A stretch of 64,000 nt of DNA from assembly GCA_947034885.2 (NCBI GenBank), contig OX344750.2, positions 1,674,001-1,738,000 of the forward strand. Reading direction: 5' to 3'. Every line of letters starts with the position of its first letter. The stretch's first letter is position 1. Below the pieces are notes generated by a model. It had not been told where the DNA came from. It made no database searches and saw nothing but the letters and a program-made list of their open reading frames with translations. Origin of the DNA: Thuidium tamariscinum. Its lineage: Eukaryota > Streptophyta > Bryopsida > Hypnales > Thuidiaceae. A program made the position numbers and the translations under genes. This document shows, piece by piece, positions 7,171-56,082 of the stretch.

Positions 7171-7676
7171 ATGTCGCGGAAGCTGTGGAGGAGCTTCACG
7201 ATTATGGAAACCGCTTGTCGTTGGTAAGTTCAGATCATTGTTGGTCATAGTTTGAAAAAATGAGGTTTCTTATAAGAGCGATAACTGAGTGCAAAATTGC
7301 ATGTGTAGGTGGGTTTGATCTTCATGTTGGTGTGGTTTCTAGCCTTCATCGCGCGTCGAATATGTGACATTATACTTGAGGCTTGTTTCTTCGTGTTTGA
7401 ATTGATGCAGGGAAGTCTTGAAAATTCTCGTGTCAGAGGAGTGCCGTCAAGTTCGTCCAGTAATCCTGATAGGGTGATGAGCAGGATTAAAGATACCGGG
7501 GGTAGTACTAATGAAAAATTCTAGGAGCTATACTTTGAAAGACCAGAAGATTGGTGGGATAACAGGGAGACAAAGCGTCATCTGAGAGGGCCGTATTTTA
7601 GACATAAGGCTACTAGACAGGCCTTGTGGATCGACAGTTGGGCGACACCTGACTGGGTGAAAATTAGGTTGAAGTA
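7171..7676 (+). pseudogene. Captured OSB-like single-stranded-DNA-binding protein gene fragment
   Basis: Inside the copia element, but on the opposite strand, the translation at 7525-7676 reads ELYFERPEDWWDNRETKR, then GPYFRHKATRQALWIDSW, then PDWVKIRLK and a stop. This matches the PDF motif of plant organellar ssDNA-binding OSB proteins (WWDNR-x-x-K, P-x-F-x-HK-x-T-x-ALW), which act in mitochondria or plastids. Upstream, ATG 7171 opens a short exon ending at 7223 before GTAAGT. A TTGATGCAG acceptor at 7410 joins in frame to CRQVRPVILIG, resembling the start of an OB-fold strand. The OB-fold itself is missing and stops intervene. Retained introns fit antisense capture, since they could not be spliced from the element's transcript. 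Confidence 0.62.
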
Positions 7677-10600
7677 GTATCATTAAGATATATTAAGCCG
7701 ATACTTCTTCTGTTGGATATAAAACCAGGATAAGATAGTGGTTTGGTTAGAAAGTCAACCTGCTTCGATGAGGTAGGAACGTGATGTACTTGTAAGATTC
7801 CATCTTTCGAAACTTCACGAATAAAATGTTGTTGTATGCCGATATGTTTTGTCCTTGAATGCATAACAGGGTTTTCTACGAGCTTGATACATGATTGGTT
7901 GTCACTCAATAAGGAGGTTGGTACAACTGTATCCAAGCCTAATTCACTTAAGATTCTTCGAAAATATATTATGTCTTTGGCAACGTCTGTGAGAACACGA
8001 TATTCAACTTCCGTACTAGAGAGGGAAACTGTGGGTTGTAGTTTGCTTGACCATGAGATACTTGATTCGCCCAGCTTGTGAATAATTCCTGATGTTGACC
8101 TTCTTGCATCTAAGTCACGGCCCCAATCTGCGTCTGCATAAGTGTGGTAGAGATTGTTTGTAACTGTGGGCATGAAGATTCCATAATCTAGAGTTCCGCT
8201 GAGATATCGTAGGATTTTCTTGGCAACTTGAAGGTGATCAATTTCTGGGTCCTCCATATACTTTGAAACACAACTGACTGCATAACAAATATCCGGGTGA
8301 GTATTTGCTAAGTAAAGAAGGCTGCTGACCAAAGACCTATAAGTCATCATATCTGCTTTACCTGAGCTTGTGTTCTTCTATAACTGTACTTTGGGATCCA
8401 TAGGAATGTTGGTGGGATTGCAATCAAGGAGATCAAATTTTTGTAACAATTTCTGAATGTAAGCTCTTTGTCCAATGAAGATACCATTTTCGTTTCTGTA
8501 AATTTCTGCTCCCAAGTAGTTGCTAGCCTCACCTAGATCTGTCATTTTGAATTCCTCCTGAAGTGCACTTTTGAGACGAGAAATTTCCTCCTAGTTGTCA
8601 CTTGTAATGAGTAAATCATCTACGTAGAGGAGCAATATCGTTAATTTTCCATTTTTATCAGAGAAGTAGAGATTTGGATCATTTTCGCTACGTACTAGCC
8701 CTTGTTGAAGAAGCCATGTGTTGATTCGACCATACCATTCTTTTGGAGCTTGCTTGAGTCCATATAATGCTTTGTTTATTTTGCAAATCTTGCTTGAATC
8801 TCCTGCAAAAGGAAAACAAGGAGGTATTTCCATGAATATTTCCTCATGGAGAGTGCCATTCAAGAAAGCCGTAATTACATCCATTTGCAATAATGGTCAA
8901 TTTCGTTGAGCGGCTAGGGCGAGAATAAGGCGGATGGTAGACCATCTAACTACAGGTGCAAAAACATCATGATAATCTATTCCTTCTTGTTGCAGGAAGC
9001 CACGAGCCACTAGTCGAGCCTTGAATTTATTAATATCCCCATGCATATTCCGTTTGACCTTGAAGATCCACTTTGCTGTTATAGAACGCTTGCTTTTCGG
9101 TCGATCCACTACGTCCCAGGTTTTATTTTTCAGTATGGAGTTAATTTCACTTTGGATCACACTTTGCCAATCCTTTTGCTAGCTAGCTGTATAAAAATCC
9201 ATTGGTTCTTCCATGAACTCGAACACCAGAGTCCAAAAATCCTTCAATTTTGTAGACGGTTTGCGGATGCGGCTGGAATATCGCCGCTGAGCTGGTCCAG
9301 CGGCCCTATTTATGGGTAAAGGTCTTGGAGACCCTGATGAGCTACCTGGAGAACTAGAGGTCGAGGTAGGAGGCACAGTAGGGGGCAAGGAGGGGTCTAG
9401 TTTGTGGTGGGTGGGTTCTATACTGAAATTGGGTTGTTTTGACTCTAGTGGGTCATGGGTATTTAAGATATCATATTCTGTAGCTAATTCTGGGGTTGGA
9501 AAGTCAAGTGGATCAGAATTTTGTGTGTCAAATACAGAGAATTGGAGGCTTTCCTCGTTGCTATTTGAGTCTCTTATATATTGATAACCTACTTTGCTTT
9601 CGTCAAATACGACATCTCGGCTAATAATGACTTTGCGATGGGTTTGATCATAAAGTCTGTAAGCTTTAGTTTCTGAATCAAAACCTAGAAATAGACACCT
9701 TTGTGTCTTACTGTCTAATTTGTTGCGATGTTCTTTTGGGATATGTACGTAGGCCAGGCAACCAAAAATACACAAATTCAAAATGTCAGGCTGCATACCT
9801 CTATATTTGGTCTCTGGAGTTTCGCCGAGGTTAGCTTTTGTTGGACTTCTATTAATTAAGTAGGTTTCCATAGTGATAGCTTCCGTCCAAAGAAAAGTTG
9901 GTAGTTGGCAGTCGTGAGACATACTTTGTGCCCATTCCATGATTGTTCGATTACGCCTTTCTAATATGCCATTTTGTTGAGGGGTATATGCTTGCGTAAG
10001 CTCCCTCACAATTCCGTTGTTGGAGCAAAAGCTAGTACAGTCGTCTGATAAATACTCGCCGCCACGATCTGATCGTAAGAAGCGAATTTAATTGCCTGTT
10101 TCAAGTTCGACTTGTTGCTTGAAGATGCGAAATTTCATAAAAGCCTCACTTTTGTGTTGTAAAAAATATGTCCAAGATTTTCGTGAATAATCATTTGTGA
10201 ATACCAAAATGTACTGTGAGCCTCCCAAAGATGGTTGTGGCATCGGTCCCATAATGTCTGTATGAATCCTTTCAATAGATTTTGTTGAGCGAGTAGTTGA
10301 TTTTCGAGGAAATCTTTCACGATGTTGGTTTCCTGTCAAACAGCAATGACATATTTGCTTCTGGCCATTTAGTGGTGGGAGTCCAATGACATGTCCTGGT
10401 CGGGATAAAAATTGTAGACTGGTATGATTCAAATGCCCCATATGTCGATGCCATAATTGCGTCGTACTGATATAATCAGCAGCTAATGCATGAGCTATTG
10501 GCTTAAATGAATAAAGACCATTTTGAGAATCACGTTGTGCGGATGCCACAATATGATTATCAGTATCAACAATCCAACAATATTGCTTCAAAAATAGAAT

Positions 10601-12075
10601 ACGATGACCAGCATCAGCAAGAGCACCAATTGATACAAGATTTTTCGTCATACTAGGCACATACTGAACTTCCTTGAGTTTTATTGCACCCGATTTGGTA
10701 CTCACAATGGCTGTACCAAATCCTTTTACACCATGAGGCTCTCCGCCTCTAGTCCTAATCTCGTTAATTTGTACTCCTAATGAACTAGAATTGGAATCTA
10801 GCTTATTGTAGTCTGCTGCGATATGCCCAGATGCTCCATTGTCCAAATACCACGGTCCATGCCCCTAGTGGTAGTAGGGGTCATGATATTGCTGAGCAAT
10901 TTGAGATTCAAAAAATTCAGCTGAATTTGCAAAAACCCATACCTTGTGGTGCCATTGCTTCTTGAACCTTTTGTAGATTTGATGATGATCGACAATCTCG
11001 TGCATAGTGTCCATTCTTTCCGTAGTTGTAGCATATCAGCACTTCTGGTCGTTGTTGATATGATTGATATGGACGATACGATCCTGAATAGCCTCGCCCA
11101 GGAAAACTTCCTGGTGCAGGAAAACCTCTTCCTCGATATGGTTGAGGCCATCTTCCGCGCCCCCAATTCGCTAAATTTTGTAGAGATGCTTGTTGATTGA
11201 AGCTAGCTGCCAATGCATCTGTGTCTCTGAGTTGTTGATTTCGATGCTCCCTTCGATGTAACTCAAACAATAGGCTTGCACGAAGTTGTTCGAACGTCAT
11301 TGTTGCATTGAGATGGATGAGAGTCTGAATAGTATTCTCGTAGGATCGAGGCAGTCCATTCAAAATAATTTGATTGACGTTACGATCTGAGATCTTTTCG
11401 CCCATGCCTCCGAGCTTGTTCTTGAGCTCCCTTGCTTTCTTGAGATATTCTTCAACTGATCCTCCCTCGTTCATCTTGAGCGATTGTAACTAGCCCATTA
11501 ACGTCAGAATTTGCGACTGATCCCCAAATTGAAATTGATCCTTGAGTGCTTTCCATGCAAGCCCTGGATCACAGTACTCTGCAATAAGATCCACAAGATC
11601 ATCAGAGACAGACAATATAATGAGTCTACATGCTAGGACCTTTTTCCTTCGTAACTGAGTTTTAGTATGTGATTCGCCGTCGATGGTAACTAGGAACAGT
11701 GTGCGACTCTGCTTTGTTGTTGTAACTGACCATTGACCCTCTGCCCTGAGAATCGCTCTCATTTTGAGAGCCCACACATAATAGTTTCTCATACCCTTTA
11801 ACTTGTCTCCCTCTCTAATCGTTATGCTCGAGCTTTCTGCCATTTTCTATCTTCCCGTACTTTCAAACTATGTACGTAATTTAGGAGCAGGGCTCAACTA
11901 AGTTCGACTTCTCTCCTGACTAACGTTCTAAAGTTTGTATCTTTCCATACTTCGAGATTGTGCACGCAGCTTAGGAGCAGGGCTCAACTAAGTTAAACTT
12001 CTCTCTCTTGACTCTTCTGTCTGTATAATCGTAAGTGTGTTGATCTAGACTTCTACGACCTATGCTCTGATACCA

Positions 12076-19692: not shown

Positions 19693-22600
19693 GTGAACGA
19701 GTTTAGCGTGCAAGGGGGGAAAGTCTTCGTTGGTGCTGTTGGTTCGTGGGGAAGGGGGATGGCGGGGCGGGCGGTGGAGAATGCGTATGAAGGAGATCCC
19801 GGAGCGTCGACGGCGACGACGGTGGTGCAAGTGGCGGTCGGAGAGGCGCACACTCTGGTGCTCACAGGTGCGTCGTCGTCGTCGTCCTACCAGTACTACT
19901 CTATTTACGGCCTCCTTGCCATTTACACTGGAGCGGCCAACGTTCAGTTTCAGTGCGAGAGAGACGAGAGATTGGATCAATGCGGGTCCGTGAGTGCTTG
20001 TTTGGAACCGTGCCGTTAGTTTTGAATTTGACACAACGTTTGAGGTTGAATTCGGAGAACTTTCGGCCAGGTGGAGCTTGCTTCCCCTGTGTCAATAAGC
20101 CTGAGCTGTAAACTCTTGGAATCGTTAGACTGTTTCAGGAGATTTCTTTTAGGAAAGATTATTAGCAGTGACGTAGCTCTCGAATGGAAAACAGTTACCA
20201 GTCGCTGGGAAGCGAAAGATTTGGTCAATGCATGCCTGCAGATTTGCTCTGTCGGTGTCGAGTTTTGCACAGTGCGCTTGCCTGCTTATTTGGATCATTC
20301 TCAGCGTTTGAGAATGATATTATGTCGGGGGTGCAATGCTTGAATTGCGTTCCCGTTTGTAGCGAAGCCAGATGATCTGTAAAGTCATGAATATATCTGT
20401 GCTGTGGTCGCATTGATTTTCTAATTGTAAAAGTTGCGTCTTTGAGTGCAGCCAGCGGCAGTGTGTACACATGTGGCCGAGGTCAATTTGGTCGCATGGG
20501 CATGGGCGTGTTCCAAGACGAGCTTGTGCCAACCCAAGTAGAGATTATACCAATGGAAGTGGAGCTGGACGAAACGGGCCCGGACGCCCCGGAGAGCACT
20601 AGGGATTCAGACCGGGATCCAGCTGAGCGATCCCGGATTACCCAAATATCGGCAGGAGCGTATCATAGTCTGGCTCTGTCAGGTACCACGCTAATATCTT
20701 CCATCACCTTACTGTAGAACTCCGAGGGTCAACCAAATTTGCATTACACTACCATTCAATCTATGCATGCACACTCCGTAATCTATATTCAAAGCACAAT
20801 CAGTATTTGCTGAATTAAACTTGGTTTCTGACAAGTATGGTGATTCATTTGATCGAACAGGTGACGGGACAGTATGGTCATGGGGATTCAATGCCTGTAT
20901 CCTACTTGAAACGATCAATCCTCTCGTCAAAATTTTGGAATTGGTTGCAGTTGAAATCCTGTCATCATGATCTGGAAACGTCGAATTTGTTAAAGATGGC
21001 GAAAATTTGAGAATTTCACACTTTTTAGGCACCCGTCTGGAACCTCAGATCTCTACCGGTCTTTGTTTTGGGGACTTTGAATGTTACAATTATGGAGCTG
21101 TGAATCACACCAGTTTAACGAATTTGATCATTGCAAGAGTTGGTGGGAACGAGTTGATTATTAATTTGATTGGGATGTTAATGTCACTCCTTAATTAATA
21201 CATGGACGGTCAGCTGGGTCGCGACGGGGCCGCGTCGTACCCCGCACCGATCTCCTTTCGCCGTCCCAACAGCTTCTCCTTCGACGCCGGACGGAATAAC
21301 AACTTCCGGGGATCTCAGAGCACGGGCAGCAGCACGACTAAGGTACGTGCAGAAATTCTACCACCAACTTAATGGTAGCGCTACCATTTATTGCATGCAT
21401 GTTCGGGTGTGCGAGAATTGAGCGATGGTTGTCGATCGATCGGACTGCAGATGGTGGTGGTAGCAGCAGGCGGTATGATGTCTAGCGCCATCGACCAGGA
21501 CGGCGGGCTCTGGCTGTGGGGTGCAGTGCCGGAGCCCTCGGCCGGCGTGCAAATTACGGACTCCGACGCGTACCACAAATCCGACGCCTTCGAGCTAGCC
21601 AACATTGACAAGCCAGGCCGTGTGCTCGCACTTCGGGATCAGCGAGTGCAGCGAGTCGCATGTGGAAACGAGCACATTCTCGCAGTCGTCGAGGGTCGCA
21701 ACGGCCCCGGAGTCGAATGCTACGCGTGGGGAAGCAATTCATACGGGCAGCTGGGGCTCGGCGACTTCGAGGCGCGCGACATGCCCACGCTCATCACGGC
21801 CGTGCCCGCGATGGGCAGCACCACCATCGTGGACTTCGCATGCGGGGCTTTTCACAGTGTCGTCGTCACCACGAAAAGGGGTGGAGGCAAGGAGGCAGAG
21901 TTGGATTCTAGCTCCTCCATGGCAAGGAATAGGCAGGGACTGGGACATTCGATGGATGAGGTGACGCCCGAGGAGTCGCCGGCGTCGCCGCAAGCGCTGG
22001 CTCGAGAAAATCCTTACAATGGCCGGATGCAGAGTAACCATGGGACCGATGGAAGCTCTAGGGCGTACTCGCAGGGCTCCATGACGAGTTGGGCGGCAAG
22101 TCATGGCGGTAGGACGCCTGCGCGAGTGTCTGGCCGATTCTCGACGTGCTGGACGTTTGGGCAAGGCGATAATGGGCAATTGGGCCATGGCTCTTGCGCG
22201 ACATCGCACACACCCGCGGCTGTGGAGGCGCTGCCGACGGGCGAGAGGATTCTTGCTGCCGTCTGTGGTCTGTTCCACACCGCGGTCGTGACGGAATCCG
22301 GCGATGTTTGGGTGTGGGGGATGGAAGGCGGGTTGGGAATGTGCCCCGGGATTGGACCGCCGGGTTCTAGGAGTGGTGACGCGCTCAAGCCAGTGCGTGT
22401 GTTCGGGGAGTCGTCGGCGACGTGTAACCCGATCACGGGCGCCAAAGGGATCGCCTGCGGCGCCGCGCACACGGTAACGGTTTCCCACAGCGGGACGAAT
22501 CTCTGGGCTTGGGGGCGGGGTAAGAATGGAGTGCTGGGATTAGGCCATCCCTCTGATTGCTGGTTTCCGAGCCCCGTGGTGTGGCCGCCCGGGTCACAAT

Positions 22601-23586
22601 TCGAGTCTGACGGGGACACGTATCCCGACCTTTGGAAATCGCTCAGTCGCGCGTCGAGCCACGGTGGCTCACGCGGCCGCGGGGACGACATCCGCCCGTA
22701 CGTTCGCGACGCGGAGTCTGATTCCAAGGTTTCTCGCAGCAATTCATACGGTCGATTACCAGAGCAATATGTGGAAGATCGACCGTCGCGAGCTGGTTAC
22801 TCCAATATTCGCACAGGTTGGGAGTCCCCAGGTGGATCCAATCGGTCGTCGCGACGAGGAGAGCAATCAGGCCACCCTTTACGGCGAATGGGAGACCAAA
22901 CGCTGCAAGAGGACTCGCCAGGACGCGAGTCACGCGATCGAGGAATGTTGTCTCCAAGCAGATCTTCTCGACGCGGCGATCATTTCTGGCCCTCGGAGCT
23001 GGAGAATGCACGTCGCTCCTTCTCCGGGAGCGCATTGCAATCCGAAGACGTGGCAACTCTGAAAACTGAGCTCAGCGAGTGCCGTCGCTACGCCGAGAGC
23101 CTCCACGCAGCAGTGTACGGCGGAATTGAATCGTTCCCCCTCCCCCGCAGCAACTATCATGACCCCGGATCCAATGCGAGGAAAGGAATGTACGAAGTCT
23201 ACGGCAACGGCAATGGCAGCGCCGCCGCGGTGGCGTTGCAGACGTGGCAGCAGCGCATTGAGCAGGCCCCTGTGGAAGAGCTGGCAAAGCTGGAGCTGTT
23301 CTACAAAGGCATGCGCAATCGATTGAAGGACGTGCTGTTCCAGCGCAAGATGGAAGATTGGTACCGCCGCACCATTTCAGGGATCGCGGAGTCGTCGTAC
23401 CAGCAGGCCGAGCCTCCGCCGGTGCGGGATCCCTACTCAGCGCAGAGCACGCCCTACTTTGATGGGCCTGACGATCATGCGCTACGCATGTCGGGCATAC
23501 AAGGTGACCGCGGTGAGATGCCTCCGCAGGCTGCATTAGCGACTTCTCTGGCCGAATTGCGAATGCACTTGCTGCGGCACCGCTAG
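19693..23586 (+). CDS. RCC1-repeat (beta-propeller) protein
   Basis: Proposed exons: about 19693-19867, 20452-20682, 20861-20896, 21206-21342 and 21451-23586, with consistent phases, giving roughly 905 residues. RCC1 blades follow in order: VFVGAVGSWGRG...VGEAHTLVL; GSVYTCGRGQFGRMG...AGAYHSLALS; GTVWSWGFNA-YGQLG...; GGLWLWG...CGNEHILAV; CYAWGSNSYGQLGLGD...CGAFHSVVV; CWTFGQGDNGQLGHG...CGLFHTAVV; GDVWVWG...CGAAHTVTV; and a final LWAWGRGKNGVLGLG that closes a seven-blade propeller. A Ser/Arg-rich disordered stretch and a helical C-terminus (ATLKTELSECRRYAESLHA, EELAKLELFYKGMRNRLKD) follow. RCC1 propellers serve as exchange factors or protein-binding scaffolds. The partner is unknown, and neither true RCC1 nor UVR8 is indicated. 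The true start is unresolved: no in-frame ATG lies in the first exon. Nearly all antisense ORFs here are GC-driven shadows. Confidence 0.85.
20897..21205 (+). other. Candidate U12-type intron with GT-GG ends
   Basis: The donor GTATCCTA matches the minor-spliceosome 5' consensus (R)TATCCTT. CTCCTTAAT at 21187-21195 matches the U12 branch consensus TTCCTTRAY, and the branch A at 21194 lies 11 nt before the proposed 3' end. Splicing GCCT to ACGGTCAGCTGGG restores the RCC1 motif WGFNAYGQLG in frame. The nearest AG (in GTCAG) would put the downstream exon out of frame and meet a stop. The GT-GG terminus is therefore inferred from the reading frame, not observed in RNA. Confidence 0.6.
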
Positions 23587-33303: not shown

Positions 33304-36300
33304 AAGGTAGAAATTCTAAGTGAACAACTTAGAAACGCCCTAAACGATTCAGGAAGACTAGGAATAATATATAGAGGACTCATTCACCATATATTAGCCA
33401 AATATGGAGGGGCAAACAATATTCCTAGAATCAAACAACAAGACTGTGTCAAATCGCTTACAACACGAACTCTATTTCTTCTAAAGCATGAAGCAAACAT
33501 TCACCTTAATAGCGTAATAGAAAACTTTCAATTACATTCAACAGAAATTGAAAAAGAATGGATGTCACAAACTACTCTTATTCTACCACATATAAACTCC
33601 AAACTTTCCTTTAAAATGCTACATAAACTCCTTCTGCACAATATATATAAAATAAAACACATTACACTCCCTAATGGCACAAATTTAATGACACCAGATG
33701 ACTTTAAAATATACTATAAAACTCCAACCAAAATTATAAAAGCCGCTTTAAATATAGCTGAACAACTATTTTGTTATCCAAGGTGTACACTTGAATGTTT
33801 ACACCCTTGTCAAAGACACACACTACCACGAACTTTAAAAGCACAATACATTTCAGATAATCGAGATTTAATTCCAAGAACTTCATGTAACCTCCGGCAT
33901 CCACCAACACTACAAATACCACAACAACAAAATCCACCTTTGCACATCCAAAATAATCCACTTAGCTTCCCTATACATAGGATAACAGACCACCAAACTA
34001 AAGAAATAAAAGATAAATATAAAATTAAAAAAAATTTTAATATATATCTATGTCAATGGACAATTGCAGATAATAACATTTATACTAAATGGGTACTACA
34101 AAGAGATCTCTTCCCGCTAAATCAACCAACGGTAATTGCACACAACATCAATCTATTAACACAATATTATAGAGAACAACAACATAAATACTACAAAAAC
34201 CTCATCACGGTAAACTTTAACCATGAACAATCTAGAGATACTAGATTTATCCTACCTCCAACAATAATCCCACTTTTGCAAATCTCTACTATTGAATGCA
34301 ATCCAGAAAAAGACATAACAACAAACACACATATCATACTAACACAAAATGAACTAACACATATATACCTTGACACTGGTAACTACCTCACAACTATTCC
34401 AACCACTAGACTACAATGGCTGTGGAAACAATATCAAACTATTATCCATAATACACATGGCTTAATACCACCTACACAATCATTTGAAACCGAAATTGCA
34501 TGGCTATATCAACGATACAAGTATAAAAAATCTAATAAAAACACGCTAAGAACATCACAACATACCCTTCCAAAAAACATATTAGATTCCCTAACAACAA
34601 CATTTGACATTTCCCACTCATATTTTTCATCACCAATCACCTGTTCTACACTAATCACACAATTTTACTCCTTATTTGAAAGAGACAAAGTATTTGGATC
34701 ACTTGGCACAGCATTTCAATACAAATGGAAAGGCAGAGGTTTTGCACATCCACAAAATGAAGAAATAGCCCAACGAGCATTACATTGGGCAAGACTAGCA
34801 GCTAAATATGATCCAAACACCATGACCATATTAGTCATGCCGGATATAAATTGGTATCACAACTTCTCCCCATATATTGGACCATTTGAAGATACACACG
34901 TTATTGCACATTTTACCGCAGACACTATCATATATGAAGAACCAACAATCCCAATTGAATTAAACAAACAACCACGCACCGAGTCTCTTGCAATACATAT
35001 TCTATGCATACATCACCAAAACCATAATATTGGCCCACCAAACCAACTAGCCCCCCTCTCAGTGATCCTCCAAAATATGCAAATACCACAATACTACATA
35101 CAAATTCCTACACCAACACCTAGTAATGTAATAGTAAACAAAAATTCAAATTGGAATAAACTCACTTACAAAAGCAACTACAATTCAATAAATTTATATA
35201 TACCCCCGTTACCAACATATACGTCTATCCCTCAATTAAAATTCCCATCGCAATACAACTACTATACAGATGGATCATTTATACCACCTCAAAGACATGC
35301 AAATGGCCATTGGATACGTGAAAAAGCCGACTATGGCATATACAACTCTTTTAAAGAAGAAATTCAAATCTCTAAATGACTCCCTGGTTTACAAACCGTC
35401 TTTAGAGCAGAGCTCATGGCCATACACAAAACATTAGGTATAATCACTACCCAATATCCACATGAACCTGCACACATATTCACTGATTGCTTAAATTGTC
35501 TATATGTCCTTAATACACAGCTAAAGCATCCTACACTACACCACAACCATGCAGACAAGATTATATTAGAATCTATGATAGCGATGCTCCAAAAACGAAC
35601 ACAACCTACAACAATTTCCAAAATTAAAGGCCACACTAATATTGCAGGCAACGAACAAGCAAACAAACTTGCAAAAAATGGCACAACAAAAGAATATAAA
35701 TTTGCCTCAAAAAATCACGAATTTGCACACACTACTCCATTTTATTACCAAAAAGATGAATGGCCAGGTCAAGCCCATCGTCCTAACAAAGGATCAGTTA
35801 AATGTCTTGGAACATACATCATCAAACATGATCGTGATAAAAATCTTGAAGTAATGGCGCAACGATTTCCTAACATCAGTAAATGGACCCTTAATCCCGA
35901 TATAGATAAGGAACTCTCTAATGAATTCTGGTCTAACCCCGAAATAACAAACTCACAAAAAACAAGCATATTAAAATTCCGCACTGGCCAATACATGGGA
36001 AATGCTAGGAAACAATTATTTTTTGGCATTGAAAGATTCCCATCCATCACATGCTCCATTTGCAACTCTCATGATGTAGATACATGGCTACATGTACTTT
36101 TAAAATGTAAGCAACATCATATTCACGCCCTCCGTGTCAAAAGGCATAATAAAGTAGTATGGGAATTAAGAAAACTAATCCTATCTACAAAAAAAAGTAG
36201 ATATTATACCCTCATGAATGCAGGAACATTCAATAACAATCGACAAGAAAATACAGTCCCCTCATGGTTGTTACCTTGTTCCTGTCAACGACAACGATGT

Positions 36301-36714
36301 CACTCCAACGCTAGATTTAAACCGGATATCCTTTGGATTAAAGGACTATCATACCAAAGCAATCCACCAAATGTCCCAGATAAGAATCTCACAATACAAT
36401 TCATTGAATTTACATACTCCAGTGATAGATTTGGACAAATAACAATAGATAACAAAATTCAAAAATACCAACCATTAATAAATAGCATCATGGCCCAAGG
36501 ATGGAATGTAGATCCACTCATTGTCATTACAGCAGGAGCTAGAGGAACAACACACATTCCCTCACTGAAAATCCTTGAAACTAAACTTAAATTAATAGAA
36601 ACCGCTCTAACACACACTTTCAAAGCAATCAATACCATTGCCATACAATATGCTGGATCAATCATTTTACATAAAAGGAGAATTGAGAACAATCAACCAC
36701 TCCCAATAGAATAA
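33304..36714 (+). pseudogene. LINE polyprotein, C-terminal part
   Basis: One frame of about 1,136 codons with a single in-frame TGA at 35377-35379. Order: a post-RT thumb-like segment (LNDSGRLGIIYRGLIHHIL); an unassigned Gln/Pro/Asn-rich region; a methyltransferase-like block at about 34610-34900 (FSSPITCSTLI, RDKVFGSLGTAFQYKWKGRG, ILVMPDINWY); RNase H at about 35262-35700 with YTDGSF, RAELMA, FTDC and GHTNIAGNEQANKLAK, where the last catalytic Asp is Asn; a C-x2-C-x8-H-x4-C finger (CSICNSHDVDTWLHVLLKC) near 36052; and a C-terminal RFKPDILW...FIEFTYSSDR...NKIQKYQPL pattern like a PD-(D/E)XK nuclease. The TGA falls between the first and second RNase H acidic residues. Codon use is A-rich. Confidence 0.72.
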
Positions 36715-36781
36715 GAAATCCCACAATACATACTATAATTCATTCTTTTCAATCAACTTTAATAAATAAATAAATAAATAA
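33304..36781 (+). mobile_element. 5'-truncated LINE (non-LTR retrotransposon), Dualen-like candidate
   Basis: An open frame starts abruptly at 33304 without an ATG and runs to a stop at 36714, followed by a short 3' region ending in a five-unit AATA tail (36761-36781). A simple-repeat tail and 5' truncation are LINE hallmarks. No LTR is seen. The RT domain is absent, lost with the 5' end. The order RNase H, Cys/His finger, possible restriction-like endonuclease recalls Dualen/RandI elements of green algae; that assignment is inference. Confidence 0.75.
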
Positions 36782-37449
36782 CTTGACGACAAATTAATCT
36801 AGTTTAATCTAATAAAATAAAATAAAATATTTTAGGTACTTTTTAATTTGTTTACTTGTTACTTTAGTGTCTATTTTCGAAAGGAAAGAGTAGTCTTGCA
36901 TCAATGGCCCTTGATCCTGTGGACATTGGCTCATTGTCATGACGAACAGACACTTTATTCACGCCGGCCTACTTTCAGTTGACCGGAGTTTCTATCTATC
37001 TAGAAATTCTAACTTTCTCCATCAAGGTCAACACTTTTTAACACCTCCTACAATGAAATTTTATATTCAAGTTTATATTGTGTATGGTTATTTTCTTGAC
37101 ATTTGCATCTTATATCATGTATGTTACATACTTGCCAAATTCTAGAAGTAGAAAAAGAAGTTTTGCGCATGCTATCCAAAATGTTAGGATGATATAACTT
37201 TTGGTCAAGGCACCCTAATTGGAAAAAAAGTTGTTTACCCAATGAAGGGATAACTATGTGTTAACATCTTCTATCAAAATTTCATGAATATTCAACCAAA
37301 ATTGACTATGCTTGTGATTATATAAGATCTCTTGTATACATTGAATGATACTTCGTCCTTGAAGGGTTAATTATGACAGTTTCACATCCATTGAGATAGA
37401 AAATGTGTGTCAATCAAATTTTGAGAATTTGACAACAATGAAAGAGGTA
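36782..37449. other. AT-rich spacer, no gene seen
   Basis: This lies between the LINE tail and a Family IV MITE. No coding or repeat structure is recognised. Confidence 0.45.
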
Positions 37450-37459
37450 CTAGCTTGAC

Positions 37460-37944
37460 GAGGGTTGCTATCACTAGAAGAAAAATGCAGAAAAACAGGT
37501 TTATTTAAACAGAACACGTCAGGTAGATTGTGTTGAGACTGCGTTGCTGAAAACGCAAGACAATGCTAGAAACGGAAAAAAAACACAAAAAAACGCAAAG
37601 AAACATAGAAAACGCGTTTTTTTGTGTTATTTTGTGTTTTTTCCGCATTTTCAGCAACGTAGTCTCAACACAATCTACTTGACGTGTTCTGTTTAAATAA
37701 ACCTGTTTTTATGCGTTTTTCTTTTAGTGTATTATGTGAGCATAAAAATGTGAGCCTATGAGCTTAGAAGACTATACATCTATGATATAAGTGTCTATAC
37801 TATAGTAACCTTCTATGTTAATAGTATATATATGCTATAAGCACCTATATTATAGGTGTTTATGTTATAAACACCTTCAAATGGTTGCATATACATACTT
37901 ATCTATATGCTCAAGGCTCACATGCTCACATACTAGCACCGTTG
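37460..37944. mobile_element. Family IV MITE, copy 2, carrying a nested CACTA MITE
   Basis: A perfect 10-bp direct duplication CTAGCTTGAC flanks it (37450-37459, 37945-37954). The left end GAGGGTTGCTAT and right end TACTAGCACCGTTG are imperfect inverted repeats. Without the 258-bp insert and its 3-bp duplication the element is about 224 bp. The 10-bp duplication points to a Mutator-like mobiliser. Confidence 0.82.
37472..37729. mobile_element. CACTA-type MITE with long palindromic arms
   Basis: It starts CACTAGAAGAAAAATGC and ends GCGTTTTTCTTTTAGTG. About 100 bp of each arm pair (for example CAGGTTTATTTAAACAGAAC against its inverse). It is flanked by the 3-bp duplication TAT (37469-37471, 37730-37732), the CACTA norm. 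The empty site is preserved in Family IV copy 1, which reads GGGTTGCTATTATGTG. Confidence 0.88.
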
Positions 37945-45601: not shown

Positions 45602-48600
45602 ATGGAGGAGTGCTGTGCAGTGTGCGCGGAGCCGCTGATTTGGGTGGCTTATGGACCCTGCGGTCACCGGGATGTGTGCTACGAGTGCACCGCGCGAATG
45701 CGTTTCATCATGGAGGATTCGCGGTGTTGTATTTGCAAGCAGGATTGCCCTAGTGTTTACGTCACTAAGGTGCGGATGAAGCGGATTGGTTGAATTAGGG
45801 TTTCGGCTTTGAATTCGTGGGCTTCGTGGGTGAGGTTGGATTAGGCTTTTGGGCTTGAATTGGTAGTTATCGAGGATCTAACGGTGTTTTTGCGGTCAGG
45901 CACTAGGAGATTTCACGAAGGTGGTGACGAATTTCGAAGGGTTGGGAGAGGAGTTGCGTCGGAAAGATAAGGGAGGCACCCGTCTCTATTATGAAGACAA
46001 TGTTCAAGCCTACTTCGATGATGAGGATCCGTTCCGGCGGATTAAAGCCATGTGTCGTCTGTCCTGCAGCAAATGCGAGGAATGTGCCCCGCTTCCTCCA
46101 GATGAGCCATTACCAAAGGGTGCGGTAAAAAAGGGTCACATTTTCAAGAGCATAGAGTCTCTCCGACGCCATCTTTTTCAAACTCACAAAGTCATTATGT
46201 GCGAATTGTGTTTAAAAGGGCGGAAGGTAGGTACTAATGTTTTCAGTGTTCTGTCTGTTTTTCACGTCTTGAATACGCTACCTCGTCTAGGCGGATGATG
46301 ATTTTCCTGTGATTAAGCTAGTGTGGAGGTTCATCCTGCTTCTGTTTCTTTTCGCCTTTCGTGCTCCAGATTGTTCGTGATTTTGCGATTCTGTTACGCT
46401 GTTGTGATATTAGTAATTAAAATATGCATGCTTTGTTTGCGACTTAGGGTTTTCTCAAACACAGGTTGCCTTCTAATTATTCGAGTTGAGGGGAGAATAT
46501 CACTGGTGCTGGTGCTTTCAATGCATGCAATTATCTGGTTTTAATGTTCGCAGAATTGTTGGACGCTATGTTGAGACAGGTATTCGTATGTGAACAAAAC
46601 CTGTTTTCAAGAAGCCAGCTGGATCGGCATTCAGAAAAAGGTGACTCTGAAGTGGATGGTACTGAAGAGGAGAGAGGAGGGTTCACTGGTCACCCAATGT
46701 GCGAGTTCTGTAGGAAGCGTTTTTATGGGGAACATGAGCTGTATCAGCACATGTCCACCGAGCATTACACTTGTCATCTTTGTCAACGGTATGTTAATTT
46801 ACTTTCTGTTCTTGCTGATAGATGATAACTGATTGTGACTGATGTATCCGTCTCGTGGAACCAGCGCGTACATAATGTATGGATGTGGCTTAGTTTACAG
46901 CAATTTTGCTGCAGAAACACGTTCTGATAGATTGAATCTTCTATGAATTTATACACCCATGATTGACTCTTACATTGTTTGCTTGCAGAGCTAGGCCAGG
47001 CCATTTCGAATATTACCGCAACTATGACGACCTTGAGGTAGGTGGTGGTTTCTCTCCTTGTTGCCCTGGATTGGTAGTGGTTTCTTACCACTGATTTGTC
47101 TTTGAAGTTGATATATTTGAGGAAGACGCTTTGCTTTGTTGCTGACTCCGAGTAGTGCATGAAGGTGATCCTTTCTTCATCGGTTGTTTCCTTCATCTGA
47201 CGATCGTCAATGTTGTGTTGGAGGGTTGAACAGATGCATTTTCGAGACAAACATTCACTGTGTGAGCATCCGGACTGTTTAAGCAAGAAATTTATTGTCT
47301 TCGTAAGCGAAGCAGAGTTAAAGGTATGCGTCTCATCTCATCTAGTTTTTGCTAGTTTATTTGCGTACGAGTCGTGTTTGTTTACCTCTATTATACCGTT
47401 CACGGAGCAAGTAAGGACAATTCAATTGGTTTATTGCAAAATCTCCAGGGGAATTTATGTCGTAATTTTGCCATTTATTAATGTGTTGTAACTCTTGTTC
47501 TGCAGCGTCACAACGCTACAACACACGGAGGCAGTATGTCCCGCTCTCAACGCAATGCAGCACTGCAGGTAAAGTCTACGACCTTCTCCACGTCATTTGC
47601 ACGAATTGCCCAGCGGTGAGATTCTCAATTTTTTTCATGTGATTGCAGGATTGATTTGTGCCCACTCGGAGAAATTCAAATCCTTAGCTCATGTTAATCT
47701 AATTGAAACCTGGTCTAATAAGAAATTATTATGTTCCTTTTTATTGAAGTACATACACCTGTGTTCCGGTGGAATTTTTATGTGAAGGGAATGTAATCCA
47801 CTGGCCTGCCTCTTTTTAAAACAAGTTCTTCGAAATATTCGTTTCTGAGTTCTAAGCTGGTTCCTCTTGTGATAGATTCCAGTCGCGATTGAGTTTCGAA
47901 GACCAGGACAGGCCAGTGGTGAAGGTGGCAGAAATGTTAGCAGCAGTAACAGCAGCCGGGTAAATGGCCGTGGTAGGGGCCGAAGAGGAAACGTGCAATT
48001 CGAATCCGATGTTCTGGATGCAGCTGTTCAAGCGAGTGTTGAACAAGCAAGCTTAGACGACGCAGTCCGAGAGTCAGCAGCAATGGCTGCCAGTGCCAAT
48101 GATTCGGAATCACGTGAGGGTCAGAATTCATTTGCAGCACTAAGTGAAAGTGAAACTGAATTAGTTGATGGAGAAACTGTGGTTCTACCCTCACGATATG
48201 CCAGCGCAGTTTCAGGAACGGGTCCTTCCACATTAGCCGACTCCGCATTTCCACCCCTTCCCGGAGGAAATGCGAAAGGCAAGCATAAACTAAAGAATCA
48301 GAAAGGTCCAGCAACCATGGCTGCCCTTTTGGGTGGGGGGGGTGGAAGGGGTGGGGCTGGTATTCGAATTTTAAACACTGCAGGTCCGAGGCCTCCTTCA
48401 GCTGCAGGATCATCAAGTTCTCGCCCATCCTCTGCCAATGGAGATTCGCATAACATAGTAGGAGGTTCTTGGGCTAGCAGCAACAATTCCCGTCCATCCA
48501 CGGCTAGCGCTGAGGTAAGGCCCGGAGCCAGCTGGACGAGTGTCAGTCCGAATCGGAGGCCTCCTCAAGTTGTCTCCAGTCGTAACAACTTTCCAGAGCC

Positions 48601-49687
48601 TGAATCTTTCCCCGTAATAGGTGCGGGACAAAATGGAAATCATAGCAACAGGGCGAAGTCTGATACACCTGCAGCGTCAGGAAAGAATGTTGAAGTTGTG
48701 CAGCAGCTTAGCAGGGAGGAGCTACGCACAGGCAATAAGGCCCTGATCGAAAGCATTCAAGCTGGCCTAAGGGGCAACGAACAAGCATTTGCGGATTTCA
48801 AGGATGTTTCAGCACGGTACAGTAAGGGAGAGATGAACACTTTGGATTATTACAGACACATCATACGGCTGGGCCTTTCTCGCATAGTGCCCGAGCTCGG
48901 TAGGCTTTGTCCAGATCCTGTAAAAGGGAAGGAGTTGATCGAGGTGCATGCAGCTCAGCTGGCTCGTGAACAAGAATTTCCTGCAGTGGCATCCGGCTCC
49001 AATTCTTCTGTCGCGACTAAACCCAGATCATCTGGAATAGCAGGGAAGGTGAAGGTAGAATCAGAACCGAGCACGCAGACTTCTGGCAGGGTATCCCCGC
49101 AGCTACCTAGTAGTGAGGAGGTTGAGGTGTTGTCTAGAGACGGCTACCGCACTGCGAAAGGGAAATCTAGAGTTCAAGAGGAACCCAGCGCAAGTACCGC
49201 GTCGGGAGTTACAGATTCTGGCAATGAAGGTATAAGCCGTAAGCCGCAAGTATTGGTCAAGGCGAGTACTGGACTTTTGTTAGAGCCGGAATCTGTGATT
49301 AATCAGCAGGCCGCAGGGTCACAGGGTCCAATGAAAAGTTGGACTTGTGAAACGTGCACTTTAAGTAACCGAGAAGATGCTGCAGAGTGTCTGGCGTGTG
49401 GTAACGATGGTCCTAGCTGGACCCTCGCTTCGAGATCAGGAAAAGGCACAGGTGACATTGCCGAGAAGCGCAAGAAGAAGGTTTCCAAGTTTCAAAGAGT
49501 GCGACTGGGCGATGGTTCTGCAGCGGCGCTCCTGGACAGTGTGGCGAATCCAAACCCTTGGGGTGTCATTTCTGATGTCGGAATTCCAGCGGTGCCTCCG
49601 GCTGCTGCCGAGGTGAGAGGGTTTGGTCGGGGAGCTTGGGCCAACGGCGGTGGTAGTAGACTCATGTCGAGCAGTAAAAGGAACTGA
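45602..49687 (+). CDS. ZNF598/HEL2-type RING E3 ubiquitin ligase
   Basis: Seven exons with matching phases: 45602-45769, 45900-46226, 46580-46788, 46989-47037, 47234-47323, 47506-47568, 47876-49687; about 905 residues, like human ZNF598. The N-terminal RING has C5, C8, C20, H22, C26, C29 and a closing C-x2-C in RCCICK. C2H2-type fingers follow (SLRRHLFQTHKVIMCELCLKG; MCEFCRKRFYGEHELYQHMS; YTCHLCQR-ARPGHFEYYRNY; HSLCEHPDCL), then FIVFVSEAELKRH, the family core. This ligase binds collided ribosomes and ubiquitinates small-subunit proteins to start ribosome-associated quality control. A conserved helical region lies near the middle of exon 7 (FADFKDVSARYSKGEM). A RanBP2-type finger lies near the C-terminus (WTCETCTLSNREDAAECLAC). 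The start codon is the only one giving a full RING. Antisense ORFs are shadows. Confidence 0.93.
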
Positions 49688-54895: not shown

Positions 54896-54972
54896 CTTTT
54901 GCTTCGACCATTAATTTCGATTTCTTTTGCTTCGATCATTTCGATTTCTTTTGCGTCGGTCATTTCGATTTC
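54896..54972 (+). repeat. Three imperfect tandem repeats in the 5' leader
   Basis: CTTTTGCTTCGAYCATTTCGATTT-type units of 24-28 bp occur three times directly before the dirigent start codon. They are pyrimidine-rich on the sense strand. Confidence 0.75.
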
Positions 54973-54989
54973 TGATCCGCACGCAAGCT

Positions 54990-56082
54990 ATGGCTGCGTC
55001 TCCGGCAGTGTCGTCGTCCCTGGTGGTGCTGGTCTTTGTGGTGCTGTTGTCCGGTGCGAGTGCTCGCCTGGACCCGAGGCACAAGACGCACAACGTGACG
55101 TTCTACGCGCACGAGGCGATCGAAACCGGGGATGATGCGACGGCGCGCATCGTGGCAGGGCCGGGCGGGAACGTGAGCGCGCTCCAGTTTGGCGCTCTGG
55201 TGGTGGTGGACGACACAATCAGGGCGACGGCCGACCCTAAGTCTTCGCCGCTTGGGAAGTTGCAGGGCTTGTATGTGCTTGACGGCGGCCAGAAGTATCG
55301 CGTGCAAGTGACGGTGATTATCGACCAGCCCGGCGATTTGGTGGAGACCACCTACGAGGTACGATCATCTTCATCTTAATTGTATGGCATGGAAGTCCAG
55401 TTTGTTCCTGGAAAGCCTTTAGCTTGCGCAAGCATTTCAAGGACATTTGGTTCCAGCGTGAGACACAGTATGGTTGAAAGGACATTGCCATGTCACTAGT
55501 CTAGGTTACATTGAGTCTCTACATGTAAGGATCATTGCAAGAAACTCTTAGCATTCTTGTCTAAATTAGGAACTAATTGGGGAATAGCAAGAACACAGAG
55601 AACTCAGGAACAAACTCCTTGTTTGGGTCCAAAATGGAGCTCTTTTGAGTTTTATCTCACATTTAACTTCCACCCATGTGAATTCAAAAGCATGCAACAT
55701 GTGGAATTAGGGATCATAACCATGACTCTAGACCTTAACCCAAGATGACGTGGTAGACCACAGAGCACTTAAACTTGGCTTGCAGCTCCACACCAAGTGT
55801 GGACTACTTTGTCATGAACTCTAATATGAAGATTCATGTTTCTACGTGTTAATTTTTGTTGTGACATTGTTTTCTGATTCTGTTGTGACTTGTATACAGA
55901 TTGCGGGACAGCGAGCGTCGTTCAATGTCTCCAACGACAGGCAACTGGCCGTGCTGGCAGGGACCGGAAACTTCTTGGGCCAGAAGGGATACGCCCTCGT
56001 CTCGACCGTGTCGCAGAAGCTGGTGGGGAACTTTGGCGCGCAATACAATGTTCAGAAATGGACTCTTGTCGTTGGAAAATAG
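54990..56082 (+). CDS. Secreted dirigent family protein
   Basis: Two exons, 54990-55358 and 55900-56082, phase 0, giving 182 residues, the family's usual size. A signal peptide is clear (MAASPAVSSSLVVLVFVVLL, cleavage near residue 26). Dirigent motifs follow: HNVTFYAHEAIETGDD; SALQFGALVVVDDTI with the paired acidic residues; SSPLGKLQGLYVLDGG; then NVSNDRQLAVLAGTGNFLGQ and KGYALVSTVS, matching the G-x-DR...V-x-GGTG-x-F...GYA signature. Dirigent proteins form an eight-stranded barrel in the apoplast and steer stereoselective coupling of phenoxy radicals (lignans, lignin-like polymers). N-glycosylation sequons are present (NVT, NVS). The intron is 541 bp. The substrate cannot be inferred from sequence. 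Confidence 0.85.

Follow-up and report, generated by a model that had tools for sequence, protein, structure and literature searches.

A probable Dualen/RandI-like LINE family of Thuidium tamariscinum with two putative endonucleases, a PCIF1-like domain and a 2A motif

Dualen/RandI elements are long interspersed nuclear elements (LINEs) that, as far as the excerpts of the cited papers go, have both an apurinic/apyrimidinic-type endonuclease (APE) and a PD-(D/E)XK-like endonuclease (PMC3636483, PMC4640811) together with an RNase H (PMC4640811). They were listed in 2015 as green-algal only (PMC4438587) and were later annotated in cryptophytes (PMC12747079); further background is given in PMC8226300 and PMC3747384. 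Their position serves as one argument for how R2-type endonucleases were replaced by APE-type ones in LINEs (PMC4640811). Here, we describe a LINE copy in a stretch of 64,000 nucleotides of Thuidium tamariscinum (Bryopsida; assembly GCA_947034885.2, contig OX344750.2, positions 1,674,001 to 1,738,000), hereafter the window, together with its relatives in the same genome. With a probability of roughly three in four, the window holds a copy of an autonomous, probably recently active, land-plant LINE family of the Dualen/RandI-like type with two endonucleases, an APE and a restriction-like endonuclease (RLE). Like Dualen/RandI as described, the element has an APE, a PD-(D/E)XK-like endonuclease and an RNase H; unlike Dualen/RandI in these descriptions, it occurs in a land plant, has a CAPAM/PCIF1-like domain between the reverse transcriptase (RT) and the RNase H, and carries a 2A motif upstream of the APE. 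Its best reading is thus a Dualen/RandI-like LINE with two additions, a pseudo-methyltransferase domain and the 2A motif, an assignment made from the domain layout with Dualen represented by published descriptions instead of sequences. The observations on which this reading is based are the domain order, the 5′ truncation, the target-site duplications, the low ratios of nonsynonymous to synonymous substitution rates (dN/dS) of four domains, and the homology of the C-terminal finger/RLE module to R2. The enzymatic roles mentioned below are those predicted from sequence.

The window copy lies at 33320–37000 on the plus strand. Its limits were set by homology to other copies (start at 33319/33320, base 33319 being assignable to either side; end at about 37000), and an exact 12-bp target duplication, TAGAAATTCTAA, lies on either side of it (33308–33319 on the left and 37001–37012 on the right). 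On the plus strand of the window, this 12-mer occurs only at these two positions. The homology limits and the flanking duplication together identify the copy as a 5′-truncated LINE insertion. The first-pass annotation, a reading of the window's letters alone, had ended the element at 36781; the surviving half that it recognized is real, but it runs to 37000, and its 5′ part also holds a CAPAM/PCIF1-like domain that had not been listed. The copy begins with a remnant of the C-terminal region of the RT (33320–33573, matching residues 419–513 of the RT query) and closes with a 3′ untranslated region (UTR; 36715–37000, recognized by comparison of copies) that ends in a short TATC-repeat tail.

The genome (363 Mb, 19 contigs) contains many relatives. 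With the last 444 aa of the element as the query, at least 96 matches were found, and the complete C-terminal 444 aa are present in at least 30 copies (95 of 240 candidates scored); with the 513-aa RT query, at least 86 matches were found, at least 29 of them covering the whole query (84 of 256 candidates scored). The copies are scattered over many contigs. Three long copies (L031, L032 and L033) were read. Each is composed of a first open reading frame (ORF1), which encodes about 580 aa and has no significant Pfam match, and an ORF2 that lies in the − 1 frame relative to ORF1; the two overlap by about 30 nt, a stretch in which no canonical slippery heptamer for a programmed − 1 frameshift was recognized by eye. 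The ORF2 frame spans about 2,475 codons (L031, 1648–9078, broken by one stop), and that of L032 is open over 2,385 codons. The order in ORF2 is the 2A motif (GDIETNPGP), APE, RT, CAPAM/PCIF1-like domain, RNase H, C2HC finger and PD...E...K domain. In the long copies, Pfam matches were obtained for the RT (E 1e-27), the RNase H (PF00075, 1e-14) and the PCIF1_WW family (4e-14 in L031); the finger is present in both L031 and L032, and the PD...E...K domain in L031, the frame of L032 departing upstream of the PD motif. In comparisons with L031, the dN/dS of ORF1 was 0.06–0.11 (two loci). For the ORF2 domains, two between-subfamily comparisons, L031 with the window copy and L031 with a second copy (L002), gave 0.14–0.19 for the PCIF1-like domain, 0.10–0.11 for the RNase H, 0.01–0.02 for the finger and 0.14–0.16 for the RLE.

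Decayed relatives (L039–L043), with about 30–47% identity in their main matches and many stops, were too decayed to join the alignments, and their occurrence shows that older families of this lineage exist in the genome. A lone relative of ORF1 with 33% identity was seen at G000:C4:32087330-32088673, where the open frame has 470 aa and a TAG and a TAA interrupt the matching stretch; it belongs to an old family or is perhaps a co-opted gene. Inspection by eye of what is presumably the 5′ UTR in long copies (L058:1036-2050 and L059:1046-2100) showed several approximate repeats of the CTCGCCCAGCTCATCGAAA type, which may be promoter repeats. Two scans of viral contigs with pieces of ORF2 revealed no relative.

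The C-terminal part was scrutinized in the window copy and across the family. The RNase H noted in the first-pass annotation was verified in the window copy (PF00075, E 3e-8); by this match and by its motifs, from YYTDGS (35260) to ANKLAK (ending at 35676), it occupies approximately 35254–35685, with an in-frame stop at 35377–35379 and with Asn in place of the last catalytic Asp of L031 and L032. The finger, which had been given as C-x2-C-x8-H-x4-C, is present at 36052–36108 with a spacing of x9 instead of x8, and it is followed at a short distance by an RHNK motif (36142–36153) common to the element and R2. The PD...E...K pattern was also located as proposed, in KPDI (36319–36330), FIEFT (36400–36414) and NKIQKY (36451–36468); these strings and GARGT (from 36535) lie within the RLE domain, whose approximate limits of 36295–36711 were drawn from the R2 alignments, conservation and dN/dS. 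Of the 30 best-scoring loci of the 444-aa search, a selection that favours well-preserved copies, 27 retain KPDI, and all 30 retain FIEFT, (K/R)IQKY, RHNK and the finger (Tyr being allowed for His). This conservation and the low dN/dS of the PD domain and the finger speak for motifs that are more than chance.

This module is related to the corresponding part of the R2 proteins. When a long piece of ORF2 was compared with PDB by HMMER, a weak second R2Bm stretch appeared over the finger (score − 0.7, conditional E 0.008), sharing C..C, ET..H.L..C and then R..RHNK. The finger, the RLE and the whole stretch were each aligned to three R2 proteins (R2Bm, R2Tg and 9nl2) with 2000 shuffles each. The finger scored 62 against R2Bm (shuffles 24.0 ± 4.7, 0/2000 as high), 46 against 9nl2 (1/2000) and 40 against R2Tg (6/2000); the RLE scored 40 against R2Tg (shuffles 22.4 ± 4.1, 6/2000) and 31 against a short piece of 9nl2 (8/2000); and the combined stretch scored 62 against R2Bm (0/2000), 46 against 9nl2 (2/2000) and 43 against R2Tg (24/2000). 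The hhalign comparison of the finger and RLE profiles with R2 gave an E of 7.7e-5 from shallow profiles. KPD and K..KY, and against R2Tg also GARG..H, are signposts common to both, and the finger, RHN motif, KPD, K..KY and GARG..H follow one another in the same order in the element and in the R2 proteins. Because of this homology and the kept PD, E and K positions, we take the C-terminal domain, as judged from its sequence, to be a real RLE.

The other nuclease is found on the N-terminal side of the RT. In L032, an APE-like domain was matched by PF14529 (E 5.7e-6) and PF03372 (E 9e-4), and the APE motif strings N, E, D-N and SDH occur in that order. An APE N-terminal to the RT plus an R2-like finger and a PD...E...K domain at the C-terminus supports the proposal of the first-pass annotation that the Dualen/RandI-type order occurs in a land plant. 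With regard to the host, six matches to PF01698 (LEAFY-type) exceed the cut-off in this genome; LEAFY-type and Dirigent domains point to a land plant, and LEAFY is also present in charophyte algae.

The best PDB matches of the element RT were R2 proteins (9nl2, 5e-30; 9nl3 and 9dou, about 2e-29), with human L1 at 7e-20, while the RT of a single L1 from this genome, used as a control, showed the reverse (L1, 2e-39; R2, 1.5e-18). The BLASTP scores of the element RT were 122 bits for 9nl2, 112 for R2Tg, 92–100 for five L1s of this genome, 87 for R2Bm and 79 for human L1. An RT tree of 11 rows, including the element, three R2s, human L1 and the five L1s of this genome and having no Dualen rows, separated the six L1s from the element and the three R2s with a support of 94/93, just under the tool mark of 95/80; this tree is limited by the long branches of R2Bm and human L1 and by its rows being without Dualen. 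Within this sampling, the element RT is placed outside the L1s and closest to two of the three R2 proteins. The element thus resembles R2-type elements in its RT and in its C-terminal finger, RHN motif and RLE-like domain. Unlike them, it has an APE-like domain, an ORF1, an RNase H and a PCIF1-like domain, and the RLE is not its sole putative endonuclease. R2 targets rDNA, whereas the copies of the element are dispersed over many contigs, often with 11–13 bp duplications.

The domain between the RT and the RNase H (34468–34848 in the window copy, PF12237 E 9.6e-14) is of the CAPAM/PCIF1-like methyltransferase type. In PMC7641849, PF12237 is described anew as a CAPAM-like methyltransferase instead of a WW domain. 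It matches all 16 aligned copies of the element, and 45 of its 46 matches in the genome are over the cut-off. All 46 of these PCIF1_WW matches lie within 2.5 kb upstream of a C-terminal match of the element on the same strand, so that the domain belongs to the element. It is also kept, as its dN/dS indicates. In the alignment to the PCIF1 structures 6irx and 6irv, FxSPxxC and FGSxG are retained, and HPQN stands at the site of NPPF, which is present in both structures; in the window copy, this site is GFAHPQNE (34738–34761). NPPF is the catalytic motif of PCIF1. Among the 30 best-scoring loci, HPQ(N/D) occupies the site in 28, L005 and L007 have other sequences, and NPPF is found in none. The element domain therefore resembles PCIF1/CAPAM in PF12237, FxSPxxC and FGSxG and differs from it in having HPQ(N/D) for NPPF and in being embedded in a retrotransposon polyprotein. 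Since none of the 30 loci has an intact NPPF, methyltransferase activity of the domain is improbable, and its most likely role is to bind RNA or the cap without catalysis. Retrotransposons with captured cytosine methyltransferases kept at Ka/Ks < 0.2, SymbioLINE-Dnmt and KnitGypsy-Dnmt3, provide a precedent in the excerpt of PMC5890265. In those elements, the domains are cytosine DNMTs, that of the LINE lies within an upstream ORF, and KnitGypsy keeps the key functional residues (PMC5890265), whereas the domain described here is of the adenine/cap type, lies in ORF2 and has lost the motif.

The ORF2 start was examined in 14 loci retrieved from 39 matches to the motif region. The motif, GGDIETNPGP (CGDIETNPGP in L056 and L057), has an intact NPGP in 10 of them and a changed one in four. 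GDIETNPGP fits the 2A core (D/G/C/N)(V/I)ExNPGP (PMC12846837), and 2A motifs are, in the literature excerpts consulted, already known in APE-type LINEs. Met directly follows NPGP in all 10 intact loci, five of which have no upstream in-frame Met before NPGP, the other five having one or two. In comparisons of five loci each with L031, the dN/dS was 0.34–0.55 before the motif and 0.12–0.21 after it; the former was below 1 in all five comparisons, the significance not having been assessed. The higher values before the motif fit a shed leader, but they also fit a region that is translated only in part.

By one rule, exact target duplications of 11–13 bp were recognized in 9 of the 13 copies considered (the window copy and L069–L080, the start of L069 being moved by hand past its U2 part); the remaining four had none, one of them being without a retrieved 5′ end. 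Close pairs of copies exist, such as the window copy and L002 (98.3% nucleotide identity over 3121 nt). The last 78 nt of the element as the query gave at least 40 matches (40 of 92 candidates scored). A short interspersed nuclear element (SINE) family sharing this 3′ end was considered, and the 12 of the 40 matches having no coding match from the 444-aa search nearby (L069–L080) were checked; since each of these proved to be a copy of the element's 3′ portion (about 78–411 nt aligned), no SINE family was seen among them, and this candidate was rejected. One of them, L069 (G000:C1:50571392 region, minus strand), is a chimera in which approximately the first 43 nt of the U2 small nuclear RNA are fused to the final 92 nt of the LINE, flanked by a target duplication of 11 bp, TGCTACTAAAG. 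Of 16 matches, this one alone covers the U2–LINE junction, indicating a single-copy chimera, which we read as a trace of template switching in target-primed reverse transcription.

Several points weigh against the dual-endonuclease reading. The APE matches fall just under the curated Pfam cut-offs (26.6 vs 27.4 bits and 19.5 vs 24.5 bits). The R2Bm RT matched the element RT at 8.8e-16, more weakly than human L1 (6.8e-20), and in BLASTP the L1s of this genome also outscored R2Bm. At the C-terminus, there was no Pfam match at E ≤ 0.001 (the best being DUF4177 at 0.018), and a profile search of the C-terminal alignments against PDB returned only a GTPase (E 0.37–0.91), taken as chance. The RLE alone scored 24 against R2Bm, which is at the shuffle level (859/2000) and not significant; the hhalign probability was only 62%; the Glu of FIEFT was placed over the R2 Asp by hand pairing, and hhalign did not place it so; and the PD-to-E spacing is 26 residues in the element vs 12 in R2Bm. 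AlphaFold2 gave a mean confidence (predicted local distance difference test, pLDDT) of 36 for the C-terminus and 32 for the PCIF1 region from alignments that are too shallow (18 and 16 rows), and neither fold was confirmed. The longer spacing and the RLE result for R2Bm, together with the presence of an APE-like domain, would be consistent with a C-terminal domain that is an R2-type RLE by descent but no longer cuts, binding target DNA or RNA while the APE makes both cuts. APE alone suffices in other LINEs. Nevertheless, 27 of the 30 loci keep the PD position and all 30 the E and the K, and the RLE retains a low dN/dS, so that we regard a loss of cutting as somewhat unlikely. It is improbable that the C-terminal tail is of non-RLE origin and shows PD...E...K by chance: such an origin would agree with the lack of significant PDB and Pfam matches and the lack of a confident model, but it is opposed by the R2-like order of the signposts, by the shuffle results of the finger against R2Bm and of the RLE against R2Tg, and by the hhalign E value. 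Very improbable is an ordinary plant L1 having, besides its RNase H, just an N-terminal APE, the outcome that the first-pass annotation had set against its own proposal and that was not seen. Plant L1s share an APE, an RT, an RNase H, a C2HC finger and two ORFs with the element. The RNase H is documented for plant L1s in the excerpt of PMC4640811. Against this identity, which was rejected, the RT tree sets the six L1s apart from the element with a support just under the tool mark, and the order of RT, PCIF1-like domain, RNase H, finger and RLE, with the finger after the RNase H and an RLE-like domain present, is unlike that of plant L1.

Two further alternatives concern the additions. The PF12237 match, the low dN/dS and the known retrotransposons with cytosine methyltransferases (PMC5890265) could be taken to mean that the CAPAM/PCIF1-like domain, in spite of its altered motif, still methylates adenine in the RNA or cDNA of the element; with HPQ(N/D) in nearly all of the loci and NPPF in none, we consider this unlikely. 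The possibility that the 2A is unused and that ORF2 begins at the Met that directly follows NPGP, or further upstream where the frame has another Met, is doubtful but quite conceivable: the Met residues and the higher dN/dS before the motif speak for it, while the fit to the 2A core (PMC12846837), the intact motif in 10 of the 14 loci and the pre-2A dN/dS below 1 speak against it.

Under the dual-endonuclease Dualen/RandI-like reading, the element may work as follows. ORF1 protein, putatively RNA-binding, and ORF2 protein would be made from one RNA, and ORF2, in the − 1 frame, would shed a leader at the 2A motif. The ORF2 protein would then bind the 3′ end of the RNA, a nuclease would nick the target, and the RT would start copying the RNA at this nick, by target-primed reverse transcription. 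A cut of the second strand about 12 nt away would yield the 11–13 bp duplications. The APE presumably makes the first nick, and the finger/RLE module, whose position corresponds to that in R2, may perform the second cut or the docking to the target; the CAPAM-like domain without NPPF would serve as the non-catalytic RNA- or cap-binding module. A more far-reaching proposal, which we offer only tentatively, is that this is a deep land-plant lineage of dual-endonuclease LINEs in which a cap-adenosine methyltransferase has become a catalytically dead module of the polymerase protein. By keeping hold of the capped 5′ end of the element RNA, this module would let the APE and the R2-like nuclease act on the two DNA strands with full-length templates, and a 2A skip would split the protein output.

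Among the papers listed by a literature search covering titles and the starts of abstracts, with subscription papers and Repbase outside it, none pointed to a PCIF1-bearing LINE or a land-plant Dualen; a paper on Physcomitrium transposons mentions two LINEs and, in its available part, makes no mention of Dualen (PMC7466625). In the literature searched, dual-endonuclease elements have been reported mainly from green algae and once from cryptophytes, to which a multicopy land-plant family adds another system. With its long open frames, this family may be used for asking which nuclease cuts which strand, and its conserved CAPAM-like domain, apparently dead and lying within the polymerase protein, offers a testable example of a cap enzyme that became part of a retroelement.

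Other features were also seen in the window. A broken Copia-type long terminal repeat (LTR) retrotransposon polyprotein with an SH3_retrovirus domain lies at 7664–11846 on the minus strand. The host genes on the plus strand include those for an RCC1-repeat protein (21379–23583), a ZNF598-like protein (PAH_ZNF598; 47876–49684) and a Dirigent protein (54915–55376). Just downstream of the element, at 37480–37730, a long imperfect palindrome was recognized by eye, which is perhaps a foldback or a miniature inverted-repeat transposable element (MITE)-type element.

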